Below the pieces are notes generated by a model that was not told the origin of the DNA, did not search any database, and was given only the letters and a program-made list of their open reading frames with translations. The position numbers and the translations under genes are program-made. Below, piece by piece: positions 28,384 to 48,958 of a stretch of DNA of 64,000 nucleotides (position 1 is its first letter; each line of letters begins with the position of its first letter). The stretch comes from Sphaerochaeta globosa str. Buddy (GTDB taxonomy: Bacteria > Spirochaetota > Spirochaetia > Sphaerochaetales > Sphaerochaetaceae), in NCBI RefSeq assembly GCF_000190435.1, contig NC_015152.1, positions 1,060,458 to 1,124,457 of the forward strand, given 5' to 3'.

Positions 28384-29552
28384 CGCCAACTGCAAATAGA
28401 GCGTTAGTTTGAGTATTTCTCTCTGTAACTGAGCGAAATAGGGTTTTCGAAAACCCTGTTGAGTAGAGTTTCAATCTTTTTGTACGGGTCGTTGGGAGGA
28501 TTGACAATAAAAGCAAAGAGGTTCAAGTAATCAGAGAGATTGGCTCTGTCAAAACCGGAATGCGAGTTCAGGAACTGCTTGAGCTGTCGACAGCGCTGGT
28601 TGATTTCGTTCATTGGATTTTCCTTGTCAGGCAAGCCTTTGAGCGACTTCGAGCTATGAGCTTCACTCACCAAGTGCAGGTCTTTCACCAGACTGTCATG
28701 GCTTTTCTCTCTATCATGGACAAGGGTTGTCCCTGGCTCGATATGATGAAGGAATGCCTCCAACGTTTTCTTGGAGGATGTCTTTCCGTTCCCCTCGATG
28801 GTACAGAAAACATGGCCGGAGAGATCGCATCCTATCCCCATGCAGATCTGGTTTCGTGATAGACCACGATACTGCAGCCCATCCTCCTTCATCTGGATAT
28901 CTTCTTTCCTCAGCTTGTAGAAGGTCTCATCGATGTAAGCTTTTCCCCTGAGAACAATAGTATCTTGGTATCCCCTGAGTGTAAGGCAGAGTTTGGATGT
29001 CCAGTAATTCGTTGTTGTGTCGCTGTTTCTGTTTGATTTCGATACTGAGTTGAAGCTCTGCATCCTGAACAAGCCGAGCAGATAATCCACCCATTCGCTT
29101 ATGGGTATCTTGTGGTTGTCGAATATGGTGCCCGTTGTGACCGTGAAAGTCCTTTCGCAATCCGAACACCGGTAACGTCTGACATGGTTGCTCGTGAATC
29201 CGTATTTCTGGATCTTGAGGCTCTGGCAATACCGGCACTCCTGGGGTGCATAGGAGTTGAGAAGCTCACTTTCTTCGGTGTCCGAAATTGAGGGATGCTT
29301 CTTCTTGTAGTTGGACAGATTGATTGCATCAATGAATGATTGCAACGGGGTCGCATCGTCCTTGCCGGTCCAGGGTGTCTCCTTCCTGGATGAAGTGATA
29401 TGCTTGGGCATTGTGGTAGTCCTAAGCATTGGGAGAACAATGGGCAGGGACTACCACATCTTCTGCTCCATCGCCCTCTCAATGCCTTATTACCTTACCA
29501 CTAATTTCAATATTTTGCTAACAGTTTACCAACACTGTGCAAAAGAGGGTTT
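28359..29552 (-). mobile_element. IS1595-type insertion sequence, complete
   Basis: A 1194-bp element with perfect 25-bp terminal inverted repeats, one transposase gene and an 8-bp direct target duplication. The last is the duplication length typical of the IS1595 family. The element lies inside the 5' end of a LacI-family gene, with its transposase in the same orientation as that gene. Perfect ends and an intact transposase point to a recent insertion. The target is a run of T residues, so the duplication itself is of low complexity, but the exact rejoining of the LacI reading frame confirms the boundaries. Confidence 0.93.
28404..29429 (-). CDS. IS1595-family transposase with N-terminal zinc ribbon
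   Basis: A 341-residue transposase. An N-terminal zinc ribbon (CRYCQSLKIQKYG followed by YRCSDCERTF, residues about 65-95) precedes the ISXO2-like DDE domain. Acidic residues appear in AYIDETFYKL and LVHDREKSH, and the domain ends with QLKQFLNSHSGF. The length fits active family members, and no frameshift is seen. An in-frame ATG at 29411, preceded by TAGGA, is an alternative start. Its stop codon is followed in the same frame by the LacI remnant. Confidence 0.9.
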   Translation of the reverse strand: MLRTTTMPKHITSSRKETPWTGKDDATPLQSFIDAINLSNYKKKHPSISDTEESELLNSYAPQECRYCQSLKIQKYGFTSNHVRRYRCSDCERTFTVTTGTIFDNHKIPISEWVDYLLGLFRMQSFNSVSKSNRNSDTTTNYWTSKLCLTLRGYQDTIVLRGKAYIDETFYKLRKEDIQMKEDGLQYRGLSRNQICMGIGCDLSGHVFCTIEGNGKTSSKKTLEAFLHHIEPGTTLVHDREKSHDSLVKDLHLVSEAHSSKSLKGLPDKENPMNEINQRCRQLKQFLNSHSGFDRANLSDYLNLFAFIVNPPNDPYKKIETLLNRVFENPISLSYREKYSN

Positions 29553-36662: not shown

Positions 36663-36767
36663 CTGTATGGTAGCTTCTCCTTGATAGCAGTCTTCTTGCT
36701 TCAGTACGTACCTCTCCTTTCTTTACTGTCAAAGCAGGTTGCAGTACAGTAGGGCAAGGAGTGTGTC

Positions 36768-39422
36768 ATGGTTCGTATGAAAGTTCTGCTATTTGCGCTT
36801 CTTCTAGCAACCAGTTCGCTGTTTGCTTCTTCATATCAGCAGATTACGACCGAACACACGCAAATCATCTTCGAAGCGTATGATTACCTCTATGCACAGG
36901 AAGTAGCAGCGTTTGCTGATGAGGTGTTTGAAGAACTTACAGGTTTTCTTGCACATACTCCTAACGACCCGGTACCTGTGGTGATAACGAGCAAGACCGC
37001 TTGGGCGAACGGGTACTATATCAACTTCCCCTCCGCAGTCTACCTGTATGTAACCAGCCCTGACGACCGCTTCATCGGTTCAAGAACCCAGTATTGGCTC
37101 AGAAGTCTCTTCATTCATGAGTTGACCCATTACATCCACCTCACCAGCGCTGTCGGGCCGGCAAAATTCCTGAGGTTCCTCGGACCTGAGATTACGGCCA
37201 TGAGTACGGCCTTTATGCCCGGCTGGTGGATCGAAGGTGTCACCACCTATGCCGAGACGGCCTTTGTTTCCAGTGGGGGAAGAGGCGACTCCCTGCCGTT
37301 TGCACGAATTTACCAGACATCCTTGGCGCAAGACTCGATGTGGTCACTCACCCAAGGCGCCTACAACGGTCCCTTCAACCCCTCCGATCGTATCTATGTC
37401 ACCGGATATGTGATGATCGATTATCTGTCCCGTCACTACGGCCTTTCAGCTTTTGCCGAAATCAACCGTCGCTTTGCAGCGCTTCCCTTCTTTGGGCTCA
37501 CGCCTGCTTTTAAGAAAGTAACCGGACACTCAGCGAAGGAAATCTTCTCCTTTGCATTGCAGGAGAGGGAAAAGGTTTCCCTTTCCTTGGATGGTCTTAT
37601 TGCAAAACCCATCCAAGGCGATCGGTTCCTTCCCGCGTCCACTTCGATTGGACTGATAGGCTTTGTGCAAAGTCCCGACGAGGGAAGGGCCGTCTATCGC
37701 TACACAGAGGATGGAAGTACTGAGAAATTATTGGAACTGAGTCTGGATGGAGGCTCTGCCCTCTCGTTTGCACAAGATTCAGCCGTGTTCTCCTCGCTTT
37801 GGGCGGACGCAACCCATCCATCCTCCCTCTCCTTGGCCTCTGTCAGTTACAGCGATCTGTACTTGCTCGATCTTGCAAGTCTCAAGGCCAGGCGGCTTAC
37901 CCATGAACAGCGGTTGGTGCAGCCTGCCATAAGCCGCGATGGTTCGCGCATTGTTGCCAGCAGTGTCAACGGCAGCTTCTATGATTTGGTTGAGCTGGAT
38001 GACGATACCTTGGAAATTACAACGCTGGCATCACAAGAGCGGGTGAGTTTTCTCCAACCGGCATTGAATCATGATGGATCGGCTGTTGTGTATGTAGCCA
38101 TGGAACAAGGCAATTCCTCACTGTACCTGCTAGAGGAGGGAAAGAAACCTTTGCTGCTTGTAGGTCCCACTGCTGATGAACTGCGTTCACCTAGGTTTAC
38201 CGACAATGATTCCTCGGTTCTCTTTATCAAGGAGCTGCAGCTCTATCAGTATCGTTTGGATACCGGTGAGATACACCTCGTGCATACCGACCCCGTCGGA
38301 ATCTACAACGCCTCCTTGGTAGGGCATGAGCTTTTCTATGAAACGTATACAGCACAGGGTTTCGCTGTTAAGAAGGTTGAACTGAAAAACCCAAGCATTG
38401 AACAGGTTACCTTTCGGGCACCTCTTGCCGGTGAAGGGGTTGTAGCTTCTGTTACGTATCCAAAAGCCGCCTATTATGACAGCTTGCAATTCAATATTGC
38501 CCTACCGTTTCCCTTCGTGGAGGCGAATCAGTTCCAGCCTGGAGTCTGGTTTCATACTACCAGCCTGCTGAGAAAACAAAGCCTCATCGGTAGCGTCGGG
38601 TGGTCGATACGGGGAGCAAAGCCGGTAACCGATCTGACCTATACCTATACTGCCGGCTCTTATGCAGTAGCTTTAGGCCTTGAACTGAACACGTATCTCT
38701 CCGCATATGGCTCCTATGTAAGCTATGCATATTCTGCCTTACAGTTCCCCCTCATTTCTCATACTACATACTATTCCTTTGAAGTCTTGAACCTGCAACC
38801 GCAACTCTCCCTTGCATGGAATGAGAGTGGATTTGTTGCAACCGGTGCGTTATTGCTTGGGTACGGAAAGCAGACCCGCAATGAGCGTACCGCCGACTTT
38901 TTTGGACCGCCTTCCTTCTCTGTAAGCGGGGGTGTCATGGTTCAAAGCAACACGCTTGAACCGGTTCCTTTCCTTTCAACTGATACGCAGGTACGGCTTT
39001 TCGATTCCTCAGCCATGCTTCATTTTGGCTTGGACGTAATCGGCACCACTTCTTTGAATGTCAGTGGTAACTTTACCTTGTTTTCCTTCACCCCGATGCA
39101 GGATGGAAATGTGAAACTTCGGCTCTCAACTTCATTCCGGTTCCCATTGGGTTTGTTGGATATTCCCATTCCGTACGGTGGCCTTACCGGTGTTGGATTG
39201 GAACTGATAGCCCAGAGTGCTTGGTATCTGAATGCTGAAGCCTTGGTTTGGGAAGGTGCAACAGCTCTCGCCGCCCGCCTGACCAGCAATGCAATACTGG
39301 GTGGTTCCTCGGTTGCATTCAGACCCTTCGCCCAGTTTGCCTATCTTTTAGGTCCCGGGCTTTGGCAGTTTTCCCTGGGCTTGGATGGACAAACACTCTT
39401 CGAAAGTTTTTCCTTTAGGTGA
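36768..39422 (+). CDS. Exported zinc-metalloprotease-like protein with beta-propeller and barrel-like C terminus
   Basis: An 884-residue exported protein (signal peptide within MKVLLFALLLATSSLFAS). Residues about 20-240 contain FIHELTHYIHL near 118-128, an HExxH zinc site, and a downstream WWIEGVTTYAET whose Glu fits the third ligand of gluzincin (peptidase MA/M1-like) enzymes. Residues about 270-560 carry repeated YLLDLASLKARRLTHEQ- and ISRDGSRIVASS-type segments typical of TolB/WD40-like propellers. The last 300 residues are strand-rich with many Tyr, Ser and Gly, and the chain ends in FESFSFR; this suggests an outer-membrane barrel. The full combination is not one I recognise. It is convergent with the next gene, with an 8-base overlap. 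Confidence 0.7.
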   Translation: MVRMKVLLFALLLATSSLFASSYQQITTEHTQIIFEAYDYLYAQEVAAFADEVFEELTGFLAHTPNDPVPVVITSKTAWANGYYINFPSAVYLYVTSPDDRFIGSRTQYWLRSLFIHELTHYIHLTSAVGPAKFLRFLGPEITAMSTAFMPGWWIEGVTTYAETAFVSSGGRGDSLPFARIYQTSLAQDSMWSLTQGAYNGPFNPSDRIYVTGYVMIDYLSRHYGLSAFAEINRRFAALPFFGLTPAFKKVTGHSAKEIFSFALQEREKVSLSLDGLIAKPIQGDRFLPASTSIGLIGFVQSPDEGRAVYRYTEDGSTEKLLELSLDGGSALSFAQDSAVFSSLWADATHPSSLSLASVSYSDLYLLDLASLKARRLTHEQRLVQPAISRDGSRIVASSVNGSFYDLVELDDDTLEITTLASQERVSFLQPALNHDGSAVVYVAMEQGNSSLYLLEEGKKPLLLVGPTADELRSPRFTDNDSSVLFIKELQLYQYRLDTGEIHLVHTDPVGIYNASLVGHELFYETYTAQGFAVKKVELKNPSIEQVTFRAPLAGEGVVASVTYPKAAYYDSLQFNIALPFPFVEANQFQPGVWFHTTSLLRKQSLIGSVGWSIRGAKPVTDLTYTYTAGSYAVALGLELNTYLSAYGSYVSYAYSALQFPLISHTTYYSFEVLNLQPQLSLAWNESGFVATGALLLGYGKQTRNERTADFFGPPSFSVSGGVMVQSNTLEPVPFLSTDTQVRLFDSSAMLHFGLDVIGTTSLNVSGNFTLFSFTPMQDGNVKLRLSTSFRFPLGLLDIPIPYGGLTGVGLELIAQSAWYLNAEALVWEGATALAARLTSNAILGGSSVAFRPFAQFAYLLGPGLWQFSLGLDGQTLFESFSFR

Positions 39423-40722
39423 GGTCGTGATCGATATCGAGCACGATGCCGGCCATGAGAATCCAGGGTCCGGTATGTGGCTCAAAATATGCAATTGCAG
39501 GATTCTCCCTGAGTGAATCAGTACCGAACACATAGTGCAGACTCACTGCCAAGCGCGGATGGTAGCTCGTATTTCCTATAACCCACCACCGCTGAGTCCC
39601 AATCCTTACTCCGGTTTCGATTCCAATACTCGGCCTGACTTCTTCCACCAAGGTGGTAGTGAAGTTCTGTTGCAGATTGAACCGCCACAGTCCCGCCAGT
39701 GTTTTTACGTAAGGATCGAACATGGATGTCTCCCGTTCATAGAGGAAGCGATACCCCAACAGCCAGGACCCGAGATTCATCCGGTCGTTTTGGTCCTCCC
39801 AGTGATTGAGCATGGGCCCATTGGTATGCCGGGTCTCAAAACTGACGGAGCCGAAGGAAAAGGCTATCAAGCGGTTCTGATGGCCTTCCATATTGTACAG
39901 GACGCCGCTGGTGAACGTGAAATCGGTTTGTTGATAGGTTTTTGAGTAGGATAGAGCAAGGGGGTTGATGCCGAAAGATCCATAGGAGAAACCCGATTGC
40001 AGAAAGGAATAGAAGGATGTCTCCAGCAGGCCTCCATCATAGCTAAACGATAGCCTCAATCCCTCATACCGCTCTTTTTGAATGACTTGGCTGGTATCGA
40101 TACCCTCTATGTCCTTAGCCAGATACCCAAGTCGTACCGTAAGCAGGGAAGCATAGGAGAGAAACATGTTGGCTTGAAGGCTTTGCTCCCAAGCATGAAC
40201 ATACGAGTAGCCCAGTTCCAAGCCCAACAATGCGTGTCCATAGAGCCATCCCCCTTGTATGCGCAACGAAAGCAGTGGGTGGAGTCTGAACTGGTCATCG
40301 TAGTAGACGAGATTGACATGATCGCGGCTGATGAGGCTGTGGAAGCTGGTTTGAATATTCTGCATTCCCAAATTCCCGGCAAGCAACATGCCAGCTGATC
40401 CAACTACGGATATACCGATTCTCTTCGATACAGGGAAGAGGAATGGATAGGAGGCGCTGATTTGAATTTCATCATGGCGCAGATTGCTTTCGATACGATC
40501 GGTAAAGGCTTTGGCTTCTGCGTTGAGGACCAAGTTGTTGCTGAAAGTCACCGCTGTATACCCGCCAAACGAGTGTCCATCATCTTGATTGTACCCCAAT
40601 CCCATGGTGTACCAGTCGTTGCCGCTTCCCACCGAAAGTGAGGTTACAGAGAGAGCAAAGGCAGGCGTTGATAATGTGATGAGGAGTGCAAGGAGGAGGG
40701 CCTCAGCTTTTTTGTGCAAGCT
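39415..40722 (-). CDS. Outer-membrane beta-barrel-like protein
   Basis: About 435 residues. A hydrophobic signal (LLLALLITLSTPAFA) is followed by strand-like repeats such as YTMGLGYNQDDGHSFGGYTAV and LRLSFSYDGGLLETSFYSFL. The start is uncertain: an ATG at 40767 would place about 15 unlikely residues before the signal, while TTG codons at 40728 or 40722 give a normal signal peptide. It overlaps the end of the ABC-F gene by about 20 bases and is probably co-transcribed with it. No specific family is recognised. Confidence 0.55.
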   Translation of the reverse strand, partial: SLHKKAEALLLALLITLSTPAFALSVTSLSVGSGNDWYTMGLGYNQDDGHSFGGYTAVTFSNNLVLNAEAKAFTDRIESNLRHDEIQISASYPFLFPVSKRIGISVVGSAGMLLAGNLGMQNIQTSFHSLISRDHVNLVYYDDQFRLHPLLSLRIQGGWLYGHALLGLELGYSYVHAWEQSLQANMFLSYASLLTVRLGYLAKDIEGIDTSQVIQKERYEGLRLSFSYDGGLLETSFYSFLQSGFSYGSFGINPLALSYSKTYQQTDFTFTSGVLYNMEGHQNRLIAFSFGSVSFETRHTNGPMLNHWEDQNDRMNLGSWLLGYRFLYERETSMFDPYVKTLAGLWRFNLQQNFTTTLVEEVRPSIGIETGVRIGTQRWWVIGNTSYHPRLAVSLHYVFGTDSLRENPAIAYFEPHTGPWILMAGIVLDIDHDLT

Positions 40723-42562
40723 CAAGCCAGCGATCTTCCAAACGTGCAAGTTCAGTACGTAGTGCATGGTATTTCTCTGTCCGCTCAGCGAGCGTTCCCT
40801 CTTTGGTTGGTTGTGCTAGAGCAAAACTTGCTTCCAAGGCTGCCAGTTGCTGTTGCATTGCTTCAATAGTAGATTCGATGTGCTCGAATTCTTTTTGTTC
40901 CCGAAAACTCAAACCCTTCTTTTCGCTTCTTTTGTTCTGTACCGAAGGGGCGAGAGCGGTGGGGGCGGCTTTCACGATTTTCTCTTTTTCCTGATCGCGC
41001 CACTGGCTGTAGCGCATGGTCTCATAGGTAACCGATCCATCATCGGCTAGGATGAACAGCTCGTCACAGGTGAGATCGAGAAATGCACGGTCGTGGCTGA
41101 CGATAAGCGTACAGCCTGCGAAGTCTTGGATATATTGTTCCAGATTCTCCATGGTAGGAAGGTCCAGGTCGTTTGTCGGTTCGTCCAGAAGCAGGAAGTT
41201 TGGATTGGAAAGCAGTCTGGAAACCAAGTACAGTCTCCGTTTCTCTCCCCCTGAAAGACTTGCAATGCTTTGGCGGTGCATGGATGCAGGAAACCCGAAA
41301 AGCTCAAGGAATTTGGCCGCACTTACAATTTGGTTGGGGCCCAATACCACTTGTTCGGCAATATCCTCAACGAATTCGAGGATAATCTTGTCACTTACCA
41401 GAGCCCTGCCGCCTTGGTCATAATAGGCAAAAACGGTATTTATTCCGATATCCAAACTTCCTTCATCGGGCGTCAGATATCCGCATAACAGGTCGAGCAG
41501 CGTTGACTTGCCGCTTCCATTTGGTCCTACCACCCCGATCCGTGCTCCCTTGATGAAGGAAAATGAGAAGTCCTTGATCACTACATTCTCATCGTATCGT
41601 TTGCTAAGGTGCTTTGCCTCAAGGATTTTCTTCCCCATACGACGGGAGTGCGAACTGAAACTACGCATCTCTTCATCTGCGATTGAACTCTGACTGCTAA
41701 GCAAAGCTTCAATGCGGTCCTTCCTTCCACTATCCTTGCCGGTACGGGCCTTCGGGCCGCGCTTTAACCATTCAAGTTCCCGTCTGAGTATGGTCTTGAT
41801 TTTGTCCTGTTCTTTTTGCAGCCGTTCAAGTCGTTCTTCCCTGCGCTCAAGGTATGAGGAGAATGAGCCGGGATGAAGAAAAACGGATCCGCTGTCCATT
41901 TCCAGGATTGCAGAACATACGGCATCCAAGAAGTAGCGGTCGTGAGTGACCAGTATTATGGTTGCATTGCTGTTTTTCAGATATTGCTCCAACCATTCAA
42001 TGGTTTGGATATCCAAATGGTTGGTTGGTTCATCGAGCAGGAGCATGGTAGGCTTGGCGCAGAGGACCCGGGCGAGGGCAACCTTTTTCTGCATTCCGCC
42101 TGAGAGGTTGGACATGGTTTGGCCTTGAACATCGTACAGGCCGAGTTCTCCCAACAATGATTGGTAATCGTTCTCGAGATTCCATCCACCAACCAACTCC
42201 ATCTGCTCGGTGAGATGGGCTAGAAGTGCTTCGTTGTGTTCGCTCTCCAAGGCTTTGTGATAGGCGCGGTAGGTTTCGATGCGCTTTCCCTGCCCGTAAT
42301 GGAGGTAGCTTGCAACCGTGTCATTCTCTTCGAATTGCACGCCTTGTTCGAGCATAACCAAATCAGTGCCATTTTTCATGGCGATAGTACCGTTATCGGG
42401 GACGATTGAACCGGCGATGAGTTTGAGAAAGGTGGATTTTCCTTGTCCGTTGCGGCCGATGAGGGCCACATGATCGCCTTCCTCCAAGCCAAAACTCACC
42501 CCTTCAAAGAGGGGTTCATCCTTCAGGGTCTTGGAGACAGCTTCCAGTGAGAGTACATTCAT
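40703..42562 (-). CDS. ABC-F family ATPase (Uup-like)
   Basis: A 619-residue soluble protein with two ABC domains and no membrane segment. Walker A motifs are GRNGQGKST (near residue 37) and GPNGSGKST (near 346). Signatures are LSGGMQKKVALARVL and LSGGEKRRLYLVSRLL, with Walker B LLLDEPTNHLD and LLLDEPTNDLD. The linker between domains holds the charged helix RREERLERLQKEQDKIKTI, and a C-terminal coiled coil (residues about 545-615) matches the Uup subgroup. ABC-F proteins act on the ribosome or on DNA-linked processes rather than in transport. Confidence 0.93.
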   Translation of the reverse strand: MNVLSLEAVSKTLKDEPLFEGVSFGLEEGDHVALIGRNGQGKSTFLKLIAGSIVPDNGTIAMKNGTDLVMLEQGVQFEENDTVASYLHYGQGKRIETYRAYHKALESEHNEALLAHLTEQMELVGGWNLENDYQSLLGELGLYDVQGQTMSNLSGGMQKKVALARVLCAKPTMLLLDEPTNHLDIQTIEWLEQYLKNSNATIILVTHDRYFLDAVCSAILEMDSGSVFLHPGSFSSYLERREERLERLQKEQDKIKTILRRELEWLKRGPKARTGKDSGRKDRIEALLSSQSSIADEEMRSFSSHSRRMGKKILEAKHLSKRYDENVVIKDFSFSFIKGARIGVVGPNGSGKSTLLDLLCGYLTPDEGSLDIGINTVFAYYDQGGRALVSDKIILEFVEDIAEQVVLGPNQIVSAAKFLELFGFPASMHRQSIASLSGGEKRRLYLVSRLLSNPNFLLLDEPTNDLDLPTMENLEQYIQDFAGCTLIVSHDRAFLDLTCDELFILADDGSVTYETMRYSQWRDQEKEKIVKAAPTALAPSVQNKRSEKKGLSFREQKEFEHIESTIEAMQQQLAALEASFALAQPTKEGTLAERTEKYHALRTELARLEDRWLELAQKS

Positions 42563-43614: not shown

Positions 43615-46600
43615 CTATTTCCCCTCCTTGTCAAACACTGCAAGTTGGTTTGCAAGGCTATTGGGATCAAAGAATCGCTTCTCCCTGCGTTTGTTGAAAA
43701 GTGAATACAAACTAGGGGAGAGAAAGAGAGTCAGAAAACTTGCAGTCACCAACCCCCCGATGAAGGTAAGGGCGATAGGTTGCATCATTTCAGCACCCTC
43801 ACCAGGGAAGAAAGCAAGCGGAACAAGCCCGAGAACCGTGGTGAACGTGGTCATCAAAATTGGTCTGAGCCGTGTTCGGGCTGCAGTGAGGCAGGCCTCC
43901 TTGACCGGCATTTTCTGCCTGACCAGTTGGTTGATGGAGTCGACCAGTACAATACCGTTGTTGACCACTACTCCGATCAAGGCAACAATACCGACTACCG
44001 AGAAAAGCGTGAATGCTTGGTCGGTGATGATGTGAATAAAGATAACACCGATGAGCAGCAGCGGTATGGTTGCAAAAATGATGAAAGGATCAACCAAAGA
44101 TTCAAATTGTGCTGCCATAACTACAAAGACCAGTACCAAGGCAAGCAGGACAATGATGACCAACGTTGAGCCATACTCGGTGAGTTGTTGCATGTCACCG
44201 CCTTGGCTTACCTTAACACCATCAGCAACCAACAGATGCTGATCAAGGGCCGCTTGGATCTTCTGTTGGACCACATCGGCAGTATACCCCTCACCGAGGT
44301 TGGCTGTGACATGGTTGACACGTACCTTATTCTCGCGTGTGATCGATGCAGGGGCTGTAGACGTAGAGAAGGTGGCAAAACTGTCCAAATGGACACTGCC
44401 GCCCTTGCTGCTTACCAAGAGGTTCCCAAGATCACTGATGGATGCATACTTTGCACTGTCCATGGAAACCACCACAGCATAGGATTGGTCGACGTTCATG
44501 GTGGTGATGGTGGTTGCTGTTGACCCTGCAAGCGCTGATGAGAGCGTGGAAACAACCTCGTTTACCGAGATGCCCAACTCATCCATCAGCTGGTTATTGA
44601 GTTCTACGCTGACCTTCGGGGATCCATTGGATAGGTCGGTTGCAACATTGGTGGCTTCGGGGACGAAGGAGGAAATGATGGTGGCAATCTCATTCACCGT
44701 TTGGGTAAGCGTCGTCGTATCGGATCCGCTCACATTGATGTTGATGGGGCTGCTGCTCATCGGACCTCTGCCTCCCCCGAATGTCCAGGATGCAGAGGGG
44801 TTGGTTGCCAAGAGGGGCGTAATCAATTGCTTGACTTCATTGGCCGTATAGTGCTGCTGAGTGATATCAGGGAGGCCAATTTCTATTGAACCCGTATTGG
44901 AGGTTCCCACCTGAACCATGATTTGGGAGTATGCCTCAGAGGGCAACTCTTCCATCAGGAGCTCTTGGATCCTGAACAGTTCCTCTCGGCTTGCCTCCTT
45001 GGTTGTTCCACTGGGCAGAGTGAGAGAAAGCGTGACAGTATCGTCTGCATTCATTTGCGGGGTGAGGTTCATTCCGATGCCGTCGAAGAACTGAAGGCTG
45101 AAGATAAGCAGCAATACCAGTAGCACGATAAGCAGAAATCGGTGTCGCAGAAAGTATGAGAGAACGTGTGCGTACGCCTGCTCCAGCTTGGCTTCCACTC
45201 TGACGTAGAAGTCATCGATATAGCGAAGGACCTTCCATTTCAGCGGTTTCTGTATCCGGGTATCGAGACGAAGGATACTACCGCTGAGTGCCGGAACCAA
45301 GGTCAGTGCGACGAGGAGCGAAGCAAACAAGGCAATACATACGGTGAGGATCAAATCCTGGAACATGATGCCAATCATCTGCAATTGGTTTTTATAGATG
45401 AAGAGCGGGAGAAATACGCAGATGGTGGTCAGCGTTGAGGCAAGGATTGCCGTACTCATGTTCTGACTTCCCAGTATCGCCGATGCAGCGCTGCTGTGCT
45501 TCGCCTCACGATATTTGTAGGTATTCTCAAGGATGATGATCGAGGCATCCACGATCATACCGATGCCTAAGATCAACCCGCTCATGCTCATGCTGTTGAT
45601 GGTGATGCCCATCAGTGACATCATCATCAAGGTGAAGAAGATTGAGATCGGCATCGATAGACTGATAATCAAGGTAGCCTTGATGTTCCTCAGAAACAGG
45701 AATATCACCAATGCAGCCAGCACGACACCCTGGATGGCGCTCTTGTATACCTCCGACAGGGTGGAGGAGATCATAGTTGTCGAGTCCTGCTGAATCACCA
45801 GCTTGATGCCGTCCGGCAACTGGCTTTGGATAACTGCCAATTGTAGCTGTACGCTGTTGGCAACAGTGGCGGCATTGCTGTCCGATGCATTGGAGAGGCT
45901 GAGTGTGACAACAGGAGAACCGTCGAGGTACTGTTCATTGAAACCTGTTTCCAACGATTCTGCTACAGTTCCAATATCATCGATTCGGATAGGAACTCCA
46001 TCGATGGTCGTTACCACTGTTTCCCTGATGGTCGTCAGGTCGGTAAACCGTTCATCCAGGGTGATGGAGTAGTCGATGAGGTTTTGGGTGATGGTTCCCA
46101 CTTTACCCTGGACATTGCGTAGGGCGAGTGCATTCTTTACTTCTGAAAGGGTCAGGTCATACGCTTCAAGGCGAATGGGATCGATGACAACTTGAATCTG
46201 GGTGTCTCCGGCTCCCCTGACCTCGACTTGGCTGACTCCTTCGACTCGTAACAACAAGGGAGAGATGGTATCTTCGGCTAGTTGTTTCAACGTCTGCTCA
46301 TCCAGTGAACCGCTGAGCATCAGGCGCATGAAGGTTGAGGAGGAGGACATATCAAAGCGCATAACCGAGGGAGTTTCCGCCCAGCTGGGCAGTTGTCTGG
46401 TTACTCTGCTTAACAGGGATTCCAGGCTGCTCGATGCCTCATCGAGGTCGGTTCCGTAGGCAAATTCCAGCATGACCATCGATCTACCGTCCGATGACTG
46501 GCTGGTGATGCTCTCAAGGCTCTCAAGTGATCCAACGGTATTTTCAATGATTTTCGTTACTTGTTGTTCGACCTCCTCGGGACCTGCGTCACCGGTTTCC

Positions 46601-46746
46601 ACCATGACGGAGAGAACAGGCATCTCCACTGAAGGATAGAGTGCAATATCCAGGTCCTTGAGAAATAAAAGAGAAATGAGTAGCAATAAGAGGTAGATCA
46701 TGCTGATCAATACCGGTCTTCGTACAGAAAGTTCGCTCAGTTTCAT
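43615..46746 (-). CDS. RND-family efflux pump, inner-membrane subunit
   Basis: A 1043-residue AcrB/MexB-type (HAE1) proton-driven exporter. The N terminus KLSELSVRRPVLISMIYLLLL is followed by ALYPSVEMPVLSVMVETGDAGPEEVEQQV, the standard first periplasmic segment. Twelve membrane helices are arranged as 1+5+1+5, with the proton-relay region in helix 4 (SGLILGIGMIVDASIIILEN). The internal duplication is visible. The gene overlaps the adaptor gene by 4 bases and is last in the operon. Drugs, metals, lipids or peptides could be substrates. Confidence 0.93.
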   Translation of the reverse strand: MKLSELSVRRPVLISMIYLLLLLISLLFLKDLDIALYPSVEMPVLSVMVETGDAGPEEVEQQVTKIIENTVGSLESLESITSQSSDGRSMVMLEFAYGTDLDEASSSLESLLSRVTRQLPSWAETPSVMRFDMSSSSTFMRLMLSGSLDEQTLKQLAEDTISPLLLRVEGVSQVEVRGAGDTQIQVVIDPIRLEAYDLTLSEVKNALALRNVQGKVGTITQNLIDYSITLDERFTDLTTIRETVVTTIDGVPIRIDDIGTVAESLETGFNEQYLDGSPVVTLSLSNASDSNAATVANSVQLQLAVIQSQLPDGIKLVIQQDSTTMISSTLSEVYKSAIQGVVLAALVIFLFLRNIKATLIISLSMPISIFFTLMMMSLMGITINSMSMSGLILGIGMIVDASIIILENTYKYREAKHSSAASAILGSQNMSTAILASTLTTICVFLPLFIYKNQLQMIGIMFQDLILTVCIALFASLLVALTLVPALSGSILRLDTRIQKPLKWKVLRYIDDFYVRVEAKLEQAYAHVLSYFLRHRFLLIVLLVLLLIFSLQFFDGIGMNLTPQMNADDTVTLSLTLPSGTTKEASREELFRIQELLMEELPSEAYSQIMVQVGTSNTGSIEIGLPDITQQHYTANEVKQLITPLLATNPSASWTFGGGRGPMSSSPININVSGSDTTTLTQTVNEIATIISSFVPEATNVATDLSNGSPKVSVELNNQLMDELGISVNEVVSTLSSALAGSTATTITTMNVDQSYAVVVSMDSAKYASISDLGNLLVSSKGGSVHLDSFATFSTSTAPASITRENKVRVNHVTANLGEGYTADVVQQKIQAALDQHLLVADGVKVSQGGDMQQLTEYGSTLVIIVLLALVLVFVVMAAQFESLVDPFIIFATIPLLLIGVIFIHIITDQAFTLFSVVGIVALIGVVVNNGIVLVDSINQLVRQKMPVKEACLTAARTRLRPILMTTFTTVLGLVPLAFFPGEGAEMMQPIALTFIGGLVTASFLTLFLSPSLYSLFNKRREKRFFDPNSLANQLAVFDKEGK

Positions 46747-47684
46747 ACCTGCTCCTCGATGACGGAAATTCGGCTTCCCTCAACCACTGATCCAGCTGTA
46801 ATAAGCTGTTCTCCTCCAAACAGTCCGCTGGTCACTACACTGTGGTTGTCATCGGAGACGGAAATGGTCACAGCCACCCGCTTTGCCATGCCTTCTTCAG
46901 CTATATAGACCACCGGCTCGCCGAGATAGGTGGTGACGGCATCACTGGGTATAACCAATACATTTTCTAGCTTTTCGGTTATGAGGGTTACCGAAACAAA
47001 CATTCCTTCCTTGAAACGAGTGTCCTGCGTTTGGGGGGTAAGGGTGACCTTGACCGTTCGATTCGAGGTATTTACTTGGGTGCCGATCTGGGAAACGAGA
47101 GCTGTATGGTTTTCATTCGGCCAGGCAGCAGTGGTGAACGTTGCCTCAAGACCGGTATGAAGGCTGGACAGATACCGCTCCGACAGGGCTGTCTCTATTA
47201 CAAGGTCCCCGGTTTTCCCGATGGTGGCAAGTGTTGTCCCATTGGCTACCTGCTGGCCGACATAGGCTGATACAGAGTAAACAACTCCATCCATAACGCT
47301 GGTGATGGTGGTACTTTTATAGATGCTGCCTGCTGTAGAGGGGTCGATTACTAAAAGAGGGTCACCCTTGGCTATCGCTTGTCCTTCTTTTACCAGAACC
47401 TCGGTCACTTTACCGCTAAGGGTGCTGTTCACCGACACTGCATCGCGTTCACTGGTCAATTCGCCGCCTAAGGTGGTTGTTCGGGTAAAGGTGGCATGGG
47501 TGACTTCCTGGACGGCTACATTGACAACGGAGGCTTCGCTTGATCGCGCCATCATACCTCCAAAATTCGTTGCAGATTCGGATGTGTTGCCGGCAAAACG
47601 TAGGATAATGACCGCACTCAGAACAATACAGATCAGTAGCAGGATGATGGTGGTGATGCGTTCCAGCATTGATAATGATTTCAT
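46743..47684 (-). CDS. RND efflux periplasmic adaptor (HlyD/AcrA family)
   Basis: A 313-residue membrane-fusion protein. An N-terminal anchor (IILLLICIVLSAVIILRFA) replaces the lipid anchor found in AcrA. The biotinyl-lipoyl-like domain (LSGKVTEVLVKEGQAIAKGDPLL, then VYSVSAYVGQQVANGTTLA) is interrupted by a very short hairpin rather than the long coiled coil of AcrA. A beta-barrel and a membrane-proximal domain follow (DAVTTYLGEPVVYIAEEG). It links the TolC-like channel and the RND pump encoded on either side. Confidence 0.9.
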   Translation of the reverse strand: MKSLSMLERITTIILLLICIVLSAVIILRFAGNTSESATNFGGMMARSSEASVVNVAVQEVTHATFTRTTTLGGELTSERDAVSVNSTLSGKVTEVLVKEGQAIAKGDPLLVIDPSTAGSIYKSTTITSVMDGVVYSVSAYVGQQVANGTTLATIGKTGDLVIETALSERYLSSLHTGLEATFTTAAWPNENHTALVSQIGTQVNTSNRTVKVTLTPQTQDTRFKEGMFVSVTLITEKLENVLVIPSDAVTTYLGEPVVYIAEEGMAKRVAVTISVSDDNHSVVTSGLFGGEQLITAGSVVEGSRISVIEEQV

Positions 47685-47695
47685 GTGATGATTCC

Positions 47696-48958
47696 TTATT
47701 CGTTGATGATGGTATTTATGTCGGTTTCCAAAAGGTAAGCCAGATTGTAGAGTGCTACGGTGTAGTCGACTTTCTGTTGCAGAATGGAAAGCTGGACGTT
47801 CTGCTGCTGTTGTTCACTCTCTTGCAAGGTAAGATAGGGGACCTCCCCTGCCTCATAGGAGGCAAGCGTCAGATTGTAGGTCTCATCGGCCACTTTTTGG
47901 TACTCGAGCAGGTACTCAAGATTAGCTTTGATCTGCAAAAGACTCTGGTAGAGTGTTTGTACTTCCTGTTGTATGTCCTTAATCCCTTGCTCCAGGGTGT
48001 TTTTGGCAAGGGTGATATCCTTCTGCAGATTCTCCAAGGTGACTTGAGCGCTGGAGTTGGGCAGATAGGGATCGAGGGAAAAGGAAACAGAGACAGAGAC
48101 TTTTGTGGTGTCACGGATTTGTGAGCTGCTGGTGGATAGGGAGCCTGAGAAGGAAGTTGATGCATTCATCGCAACGACAGGGGAGGCACTTGATGCTCGT
48201 ACCTTTTTCAGTGCAAGCTCGGCCTGTTCCACCTGGTAGCTGAGCTGTTTGATGGATGTGGTGCTAAGCGAGAGTTCCTGCAGAAATTCCAAATTTTTGA
48301 GATCCCTGACTTCCATGAGCTCATCAGAGGTTCCCTCGATTTCGTAGCCGATTAACCTTTGGAGTGCTTGTTTAGCAGTTTCAAAGTCGTTATTTCTGCT
48401 CTCTACGGTGAGTTTGGCTTGAAAGAGGGCCAGCTTTGCCTGACTGACTGCAAGTGTGTTGGCTTTGCCATTATCGAATTGTGCTTGGATAGCGGCATTC
48501 GATATACTTTTCTGTTCATAGTCCAGTAGCTGCTGATCATAGGCAAGTTCGGCTGCCGTTACATTCCAATATGTTTGTGTTACCTGCGCTTTCAGGTTTT
48601 GTATGCTGGTGCCAAAGGCTGTTTGGGCGGTTTTGGCAAGCAACGTATTGGATGCTTTTGTGTAGCGATCTGAGCTGGAGAGCGAAAACGAAACGGACGC
48701 CGTAGGTGTTATGAGTGCATTGCTTTCCTGATCCAGGAGACTTATTGAAGCCGATGCGCCCACCGAGAGATCGATTGAAGGCAGATAACTGTTTATATTG
48801 GCTTTGTTTAGTTGTTTTTCCAAGGTAATCTTGGCATTCTGGGCAATACTGTTGGTGGCTTGTGCACTTTGTAAGGCTTCTTGCAGGGTAAGTTGTTGGG
48901 CAAAAAGTGGAGTTCCAAGCAATAATGCTAAAAGGAACGTGATTCGTATCCGTGACAT
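47696..48958 (-). CDS. TolC-family outer-membrane efflux protein
   Basis: A 420-residue protein with signal peptide MSRIRITFLLALLLGTPLFAQ, then QLTLQEALQSAQATN, the classical first helix of the TolC fold. The long amphipathic helices occur in two copies (about 25-200 and 230-410). A GAGGAG site lies 8 bases before the ATG. It is the first gene of a tripartite efflux operon in the order outer-membrane channel, adaptor, pump, and is divergent from the FAD-dependent dehydrogenase gene. Confidence 0.9.
   Translation of the reverse strand: MSRIRITFLLALLLGTPLFAQQLTLQEALQSAQATNSIAQNAKITLEKQLNKANINSYLPSIDLSVGASASISLLDQESNALITPTASVSFSLSSSDRYTKASNTLLAKTAQTAFGTSIQNLKAQVTQTYWNVTAAELAYDQQLLDYEQKSISNAAIQAQFDNGKANTLAVSQAKLALFQAKLTVESRNNDFETAKQALQRLIGYEIEGTSDELMEVRDLKNLEFLQELSLSTTSIKQLSYQVEQAELALKKVRASSASPVVAMNASTSFSGSLSTSSSQIRDTTKVSVSVSFSLDPYLPNSSAQVTLENLQKDITLAKNTLEQGIKDIQQEVQTLYQSLLQIKANLEYLLEYQKVADETYNLTLASYEAGEVPYLTLQESEQQQQNVQLSILQQKVDYTVALYNLAYLLETDINTIINE

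Follow-up and report, generated by a model that had tools for sequence, protein, structure and literature searches.

A zinc protease domain, a TolB-like propeller and a predicted Omp85-type barrel in one exported chain of Sphaerochaeta globosa

Results

We found that a single gene of Sphaerochaeta globosa str. Buddy joins a gluzincin-type zinc protease domain, a TolB-like β-propeller and a predicted outer-membrane barrel of Omp85 type in one exported chain. Motif conservation, sequence profiles and predicted folds all bear out this three-part fusion, which the initial annotation had proposed, and we regard it as real. We put the probability at about 0.5 that the protein is an outer-membrane-anchored zinc metalloprotease that faces the periplasm and serves in quality control or processing.

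The gene and its product

The window, that is, the whole stretch of 64,000 nucleotides that was analysed, carries the gene as one intact open reading frame of 884 amino acids with an ATG start (36768-39422, + strand), the same extent as in the initial annotation. The gene is present in a single copy in the single-contig genome of 3,316,466 bases (3.32 Mb). Because orthologues of the same length occur in 24 of the 25 Sphaerochaeta congeners searched and in 68 of 100 relatives, stop-free in nearly all, we take the reading frame to be a real gene. The protein, here called P0001, gave on its own no Pfam or NCBIfam match above cut-off. The features discussed below are as follows:

36756..36761 (+): ribosome-binding site AAGGAG, by sequence, about 7 nt upstream of the ATG
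36768..36827 (+): predicted Sec signal peptide, residues 1-20 (MVRMKVLLFALLLATSSLFA), by sequence; the N termini of relatives are hydrophobic too
36828..37583 (+): gluzincin (Peptidase MA-like) zinc protease domain, residues 21-272, by profile A4, PF13485 and conservation
37116..37130 (+): HELTH, with H117 and H121 as putative zinc ligands and E118 as putative catalytic glutamate; invariant
37233..37238 (+): E156-G157, putative third zinc ligand in the gluzincin pattern; invariant
37254..37283 (+): E163 ... G171-R172, family signature past the zinc site; absent from the HELVHAFQ sister group
37584..38402 (+): six-bladed TolB-like β-propeller, residues 273-545, by profile matches and predicted fold
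38463..39401 (+): Omp85-like 16-strand outer-membrane barrel, residues ~566-878, by predicted fold and by PF01103 via intermediates
39045..39110 (+): hairpin β11-β12, the place of Omp85 loop 6; RG(Y/F) is missing in P0001 and present in some relatives
39135..39161 (+): FRFPLGLLD, residues 790-798, aligning with EYRFPLIQFD, which follows loop 6 in relatives with RGY intact
39415..40767 (-): facing gene for an exported strand-rich (barrel-like) protein of a genus-limited family, by ORF features in the sequence

In three family members (L006, L024 and L054), one in-frame stop divides the gene into two neighbouring reading frames, the front one holding protease and propeller and the back one the barrel; these could be pseudogenes or sequencing errors.

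Protease domain

The HELTH motif at residues 117-121 and the downstream WWIEG (E156), on which the earlier assignment had relied, are both found in the chain. An alignment of 40 members (A2), with identities as low as 15%, shows no variation at seven residues of this region (H117, E118, H121, E156, G157, E163 and R172). Over 78 aligned sequences, the eight key sites read HEHEGEGR in 75 and HEHEGEAR in one; the other two proved to be mis-included non-members, which leaves 76 verified relatives, and HExxH with its downstream glutamate is intact in all 76. One sequence at first taken as a relative (L076) lacks a zinc site and was dropped; it is not in the 40 rows of A2.

In the PDB, a profile of the protease domain by itself (A4) matched ColG, a collagenase of clostridia (1.1e-7), and, at 8e-4, a cold-active aminopeptidase; we take both to be gluzincins. 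P0001 scores 15.6 bits against PF13485 (Peptidase_MA_2), below the curated cut-off of 32.4, a cut-off that the sister proteins L151, L154, L159, L162 and L163 pass. The protease is also the best-conserved domain of the chain, with a mean pairwise identity of 59%; the propeller has 41% and the barrel 37%. By its sequence pattern, then, the domain is a zinc protease of gluzincin type, and it is probably active. In the full-chain structure model the protease part reaches a pLDDT of only ~40-60, too uncertain to judge zinc geometry, and this would leave room for a dead gluzincin fold that acts only as a binding platform. We consider such a loss of activity highly improbable, because the zinc-site residues are invariant over the 40 members and are the most strictly kept in the whole chain.

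TolB-like propeller

The TolB-like repeats noted earlier are borne out both by sequence profiles and by the fold. The family profile matched TolB structures in the PDB at 1e-19, and the propeller model superimposes on TolB (2hqs) with a VIA Z of 21.8 and an rmsd of 2.9 over 235 residues. Propeller fold and sequence similarity are thus common to TolB and P0001; the match to TIGR02800 is significant (6.8e-8) but reaches 31.9 bits, far under the equivalog cut-off of 343.15, which rules out that the propeller is TolB itself. A search of the S. globosa genome for other TolB-like propellers found none.

Outer-membrane barrel

The C terminus had been described as strand-rich and barrel-like. Predicted alone, residues 560-884 form a barrel of 16 strands with a pLDDT of 83.7 and a pTM of 0.78; the C terminus is no soluble domain. 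When the barrel alone was compared with Foldseek, the best 50 matches all belonged to the Omp85 superfamily. The VIA Z of the barrel was 19.4 with Fusobacterium BamA (FnBamA), 19.2 with CdiB, 19.1 with FhaC and 18 with TamA, while the best unrelated barrel among the matches listed, CymA, had a Z of 16.1. A viral structure library gave one unnamed low-identity match at 3e-4, which added little.

P0001 itself has no match to PF01103 (Omp85) or to the POTRA families, the place before the barrel being occupied by propeller and protease, and profile-profile comparison (hhalign) found no match between its barrel and the BamA barrels of spirochaetes. These results, together with the Z of 16 attained by barrels of the CymA type, would suit an unrelated 16-strand, porin-like barrel with no Omp85 descent. 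We judge this very unlikely, because Omp85 proteins head the fold ranking and because a chain of sequence matches leads from P0001 to members that carry LRGYPAG...EYRFPL and score above the PF01103 cut-off. Over most of the barrel's length, a profile built only from Spirochaetia barrels matched L146 (3.4e-13), L144 (9e-10), L104 (6.4e-8), L105 and L148, the five ranging from 3e-13 to 1.5e-6; neither BamA nor shuffled controls were matched. The PF01103 cut-off is 24 bits; L104 scores 24.4 bits and L144 scores 31.9 bits, and in a whole-genome search seven family ORFs also score above it. The zinc site is kept in the intermediates (L104, L144 and others), almost all of which also carry the loop-6 motif, for example LRGYPAG...LEYRFPLIQFD. 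They close the sequence gap between the P0001 barrel and PF01103.

The loop-6 motif itself, (V/I/L)RG(F/Y), is absent from P0001 and from most Spirochaetia members; 5 of the 78 members in the alignment carry it, as do 5 of the 6 outside relatives that are closest (L144-L149). On fold prediction and sequence, the P0001 barrel is best described as a divergent barrel of apparent Omp85 descent that has lost the RGY motif of loop 6. The same observation bears on whether the barrel could be a channel, with the protease trimming incoming or outgoing peptides as they pass, in nutrition or secretion. The translocators FhaC and CdiB are among the best fold matches, and Sphaerochaeta are fermenters, which may be counted in favour of a nutritional role; however, P0001 and most Spirochaetia members no longer have the RGY that is typical of Omp85 proteins working as translocators, and there is no conserved linked substrate gene, so that we hold a channel to be quite unlikely.

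Distribution and sister group

The survey of spirochaete genomes that had been suggested was carried out with the 40-member family profile, which found matches in 192 of 247 Spirochaetota genomes and in 101 of 115 genera; 192 is an upper estimate for the fused architecture, since some matches may be to the propeller only. The family profile found no match in a group of small genomes in several contigs, probably Borreliaceae (f19), and the role is thus not universal in spirochaetes. A tblastn search of plasmids and a search of PHROGs also gave no match.

Elsewhere in the phylum, a further group of ORFs (L150-L163) shows the zinc site as HELVHAFQY...WxxEGMAEY. Six of these were scanned with Pfam: L151, L154, L159, L162 and L163 pass the cut-offs of PF13485 (Peptidase_MA_2), PF07676 (PD40) and PF01103 (Omp85) together, whereas L157 passes only two of these. 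This HELVHAFQ-type subfamily of Peptidase_MA_2-PD40-Omp85 proteins (L151, L154, L159, L162 and L163) appears to have no dedicated family model. Because these sister proteins share the domain order of P0001, the architecture is recognisable and recurrent, and is no peculiarity of one genome.

The counterpart in Treponema pallidum

In a T. pallidum genome (G145), the minus strand carries a family ORF that is 3,159 bases long with its stop codon and that adjoins a gene recognised by eye as mutL:

L094:2589-5744 (-): counterpart of TP0304, gluzincin site intact

Because its length, strand and relative position agree with those of TP0304 (coordinates 321084-317926; PMC1386717), we identify the ORF as TP0304; a coordinate offset of ~1.2 kb from that report is taken to reflect a different assembly. 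It matches the family profile at 1.7e-70 over protease and propeller, with HELTH...FTEG...E...GR intact. Its C terminus is strand-rich by eye and had no match to the P0001 barrel, and we therefore claim kinship for protease and propeller only. This C terminus also bears an insertion rich in Cys, Gly and Asn (CLCANGGGNGNCCGNNGGQQCCACNGQGANG). TP0304 has been reported as variable in short repeats (PMC2408589; PMC10499264) and has been added as a target beside predicted outer-membrane proteins and listed among loci of high sequence variability (PMC12482175). In these papers it figures only as a variable gene, without a function; the present assignment gives this gene of the syphilis agent a testable biochemical identity.

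Membrane side

The initial annotation had suggested that the protease might be surface-anchored. A type Vd-like display, in which protease and propeller pass through or beside the barrel and cut host or environmental proteins, has several points in its favour: zinc proteases are common on surfaces, the closest solved relatives by sequence are secreted collagenases, TP0304 is among high-variability loci (PMC12482175), and PlpD, an Omp85 protein with an N-terminal enzyme, was originally described as a secreted patatin, as reviewed in PMC11116518. The same paper reports that experiments later placed the PlpD enzyme in the periplasm, and that in the Omp85 proteins studied the parts preceding the barrel are periplasmic (PMC11116518). 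Moreover, propeller and protease are folded domains without a β-helix, and the protease is the best-conserved domain, which would be unusual for a domain on the surface.

The barrel hairpins give a further indication. The outer loops are the most variable parts of outer-membrane proteins. Among 26 close relatives, the odd hairpins hold most of the length variation (one-sided Mann-Whitney p 0.04) and have a higher mean residue entropy than the even ones; the wider set departs from this pattern, its most variable hairpin being an even one (12-13). Since the odd hairpins would lie outside if the N terminus were periplasmic, their greater variation favours a periplasmic N terminus. An Omp85-type barrel preceded by N-terminal domains and variability in the putative outer hairpins thus make surface anchoring less likely than the initial annotation implied. 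We regard surface display as unlikely, and conclude with modest confidence, from sequence and by analogy with other Omp85 proteins, that the protease probably faces the periplasm.

Neighbouring genes

As was noted at the outset, the next gene (39415-40767, - strand) faces the protease gene and looks like one for an exported strand-rich protein: the two lie tail to tail, and their ORFs overlap by 8 nt. The facing gene has no Pfam or NCBIfam match. It is found at the same place in nearly all congeners, and past the genus it is unlinked or absent; some congeners (G007, G011, G015 and G022) carry two tandem copies of this family. We considered a functional link between the two genes and rejected it, because neighbour clustering found no neighbour recurrent past the genus and indicates no pathway; the facing gene is a genus-level neighbour and no conserved partner.

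Elsewhere in the window, an ORF at 28404-29429 (-) resembles a transposase, begins with a CxxC zinc ribbon and probably belongs to an insertion sequence, and 43615-48958 (-) looks like a tripartite efflux operon for an RND pump, a membrane-fusion protein and a TolC-like protein.

Discussion

Our best guess is that P0001 takes part in the quality control or processing of exported and outer-membrane proteins. After Sec export, the C-terminal 16-strand barrel of presumed Omp85 origin would insert in the outer membrane, and the propeller and the gluzincin domain, substituting for POTRA domains, would hang into the periplasm. The propeller could be a platform for docking or for substrate selection at the barrel mouth, where the zinc site (H117, H121 and E156, with E118 as the base) would cleave proteins. 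Quality control or processing of exported proteins would be a fitting task for a periplasmic protease that is tethered at the outer membrane and has a docking propeller, although we infer both the periplasmic side and the substrates. The earlier suggestion of an envelope-assembly factor would be compatible with this picture.

In E. coli a comparable job is split among BAM-linked parts that are not fused, such as the protease BepA and the propeller protein BamB. The S. globosa genome has its own BamA, and a search for M48 proteases of the BepA type (PF01435) found none in P0001 or anywhere in the genome. We tentatively propose, as a possibility that we still consider doubtful, that most spirochaetes, T. 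pallidum with TP0304 among them, carry an unrecognised single-chain envelope protease that replaces BepA-, BamB- and BamA-like parts: the zinc site would have been kept and the translocase motif of the barrel lost, turning an assembly or translocation machine into a membrane-anchored protease. Because a single gene is conserved through most of Spirochaetota with its protease site untouched, the protein is probably important to the spirochaete envelope, and it bears on an envelope biogenesis that is poorly known.

It is instructive to compare P0001 with the known systems that share its parts. Clostridial collagenase G, an M9 gluzincin, has the zinc-site region of the protease domain in common with P0001 and is a secreted collagenase; we know of no such propeller-barrel fusion in it. 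E. coli BepA, BamB and BamA also bring a periplasmic zinc protease and a propeller to an Omp85 barrel, but the analogy is one of role only: the three are separate proteins, and BepA belongs to M48, unlike the gluzincin type of P0001. PlpD (patatin-Omp85, formerly type Vd) resembles P0001 in having an N-terminal enzyme on an Omp85 barrel; it carries a patatin lipase and one POTRA where P0001 has a gluzincin domain and a propeller (PMC11116518), and a Pfam search of P0001 for a patatin domain gave no match.

The sister proteins of the phylum (for example L151, L154 and L159) have the same three domains in the same order and the same HExxH...EG site. They differ in being of the HELVHAFQ...EGMAEY type, without the E163...GR signature of the P0001 family; some retain RGY, and those scanned retain Pfam-level similarity to Omp85, unlike P0001.

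The closest described type is the WD40-Omp85 subfamily, which has a TolB-like propeller and was described in 2014 (Heinz & Lithgow, PMC4104836). By its description, it has, like P0001, a TolB-like propeller ahead of an Omp85 barrel and no POTRA; the differences are that the text consulted mentions no peptidase before the propeller and no spirochaetes, and that P0001 has lost the Omp85 sequence signature in its barrel (PMC4104836). The suggestion that the protein might be of a kind not yet described thus holds in part. WD40-Omp85 fusions were already catalogued in 2014, and the sister proteins pass the Pfam models for Peptidase_MA_2, PD40 and Omp85; a peptidase ahead of the propeller is mentioned in the consulted text of neither PMC4104836 nor PMC11116518. 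Omp85 proteins with enzymes or propellers instead of POTRA domains have been named but barely studied, and in 2024 WD40-Omp85 was still listed among the subfamilies not well characterised (PMC11116518). As judged by description, the architecture fits, and P0001 appears to be a divergent, POTRA-less variant of this little-studied WD40-Omp85 type.
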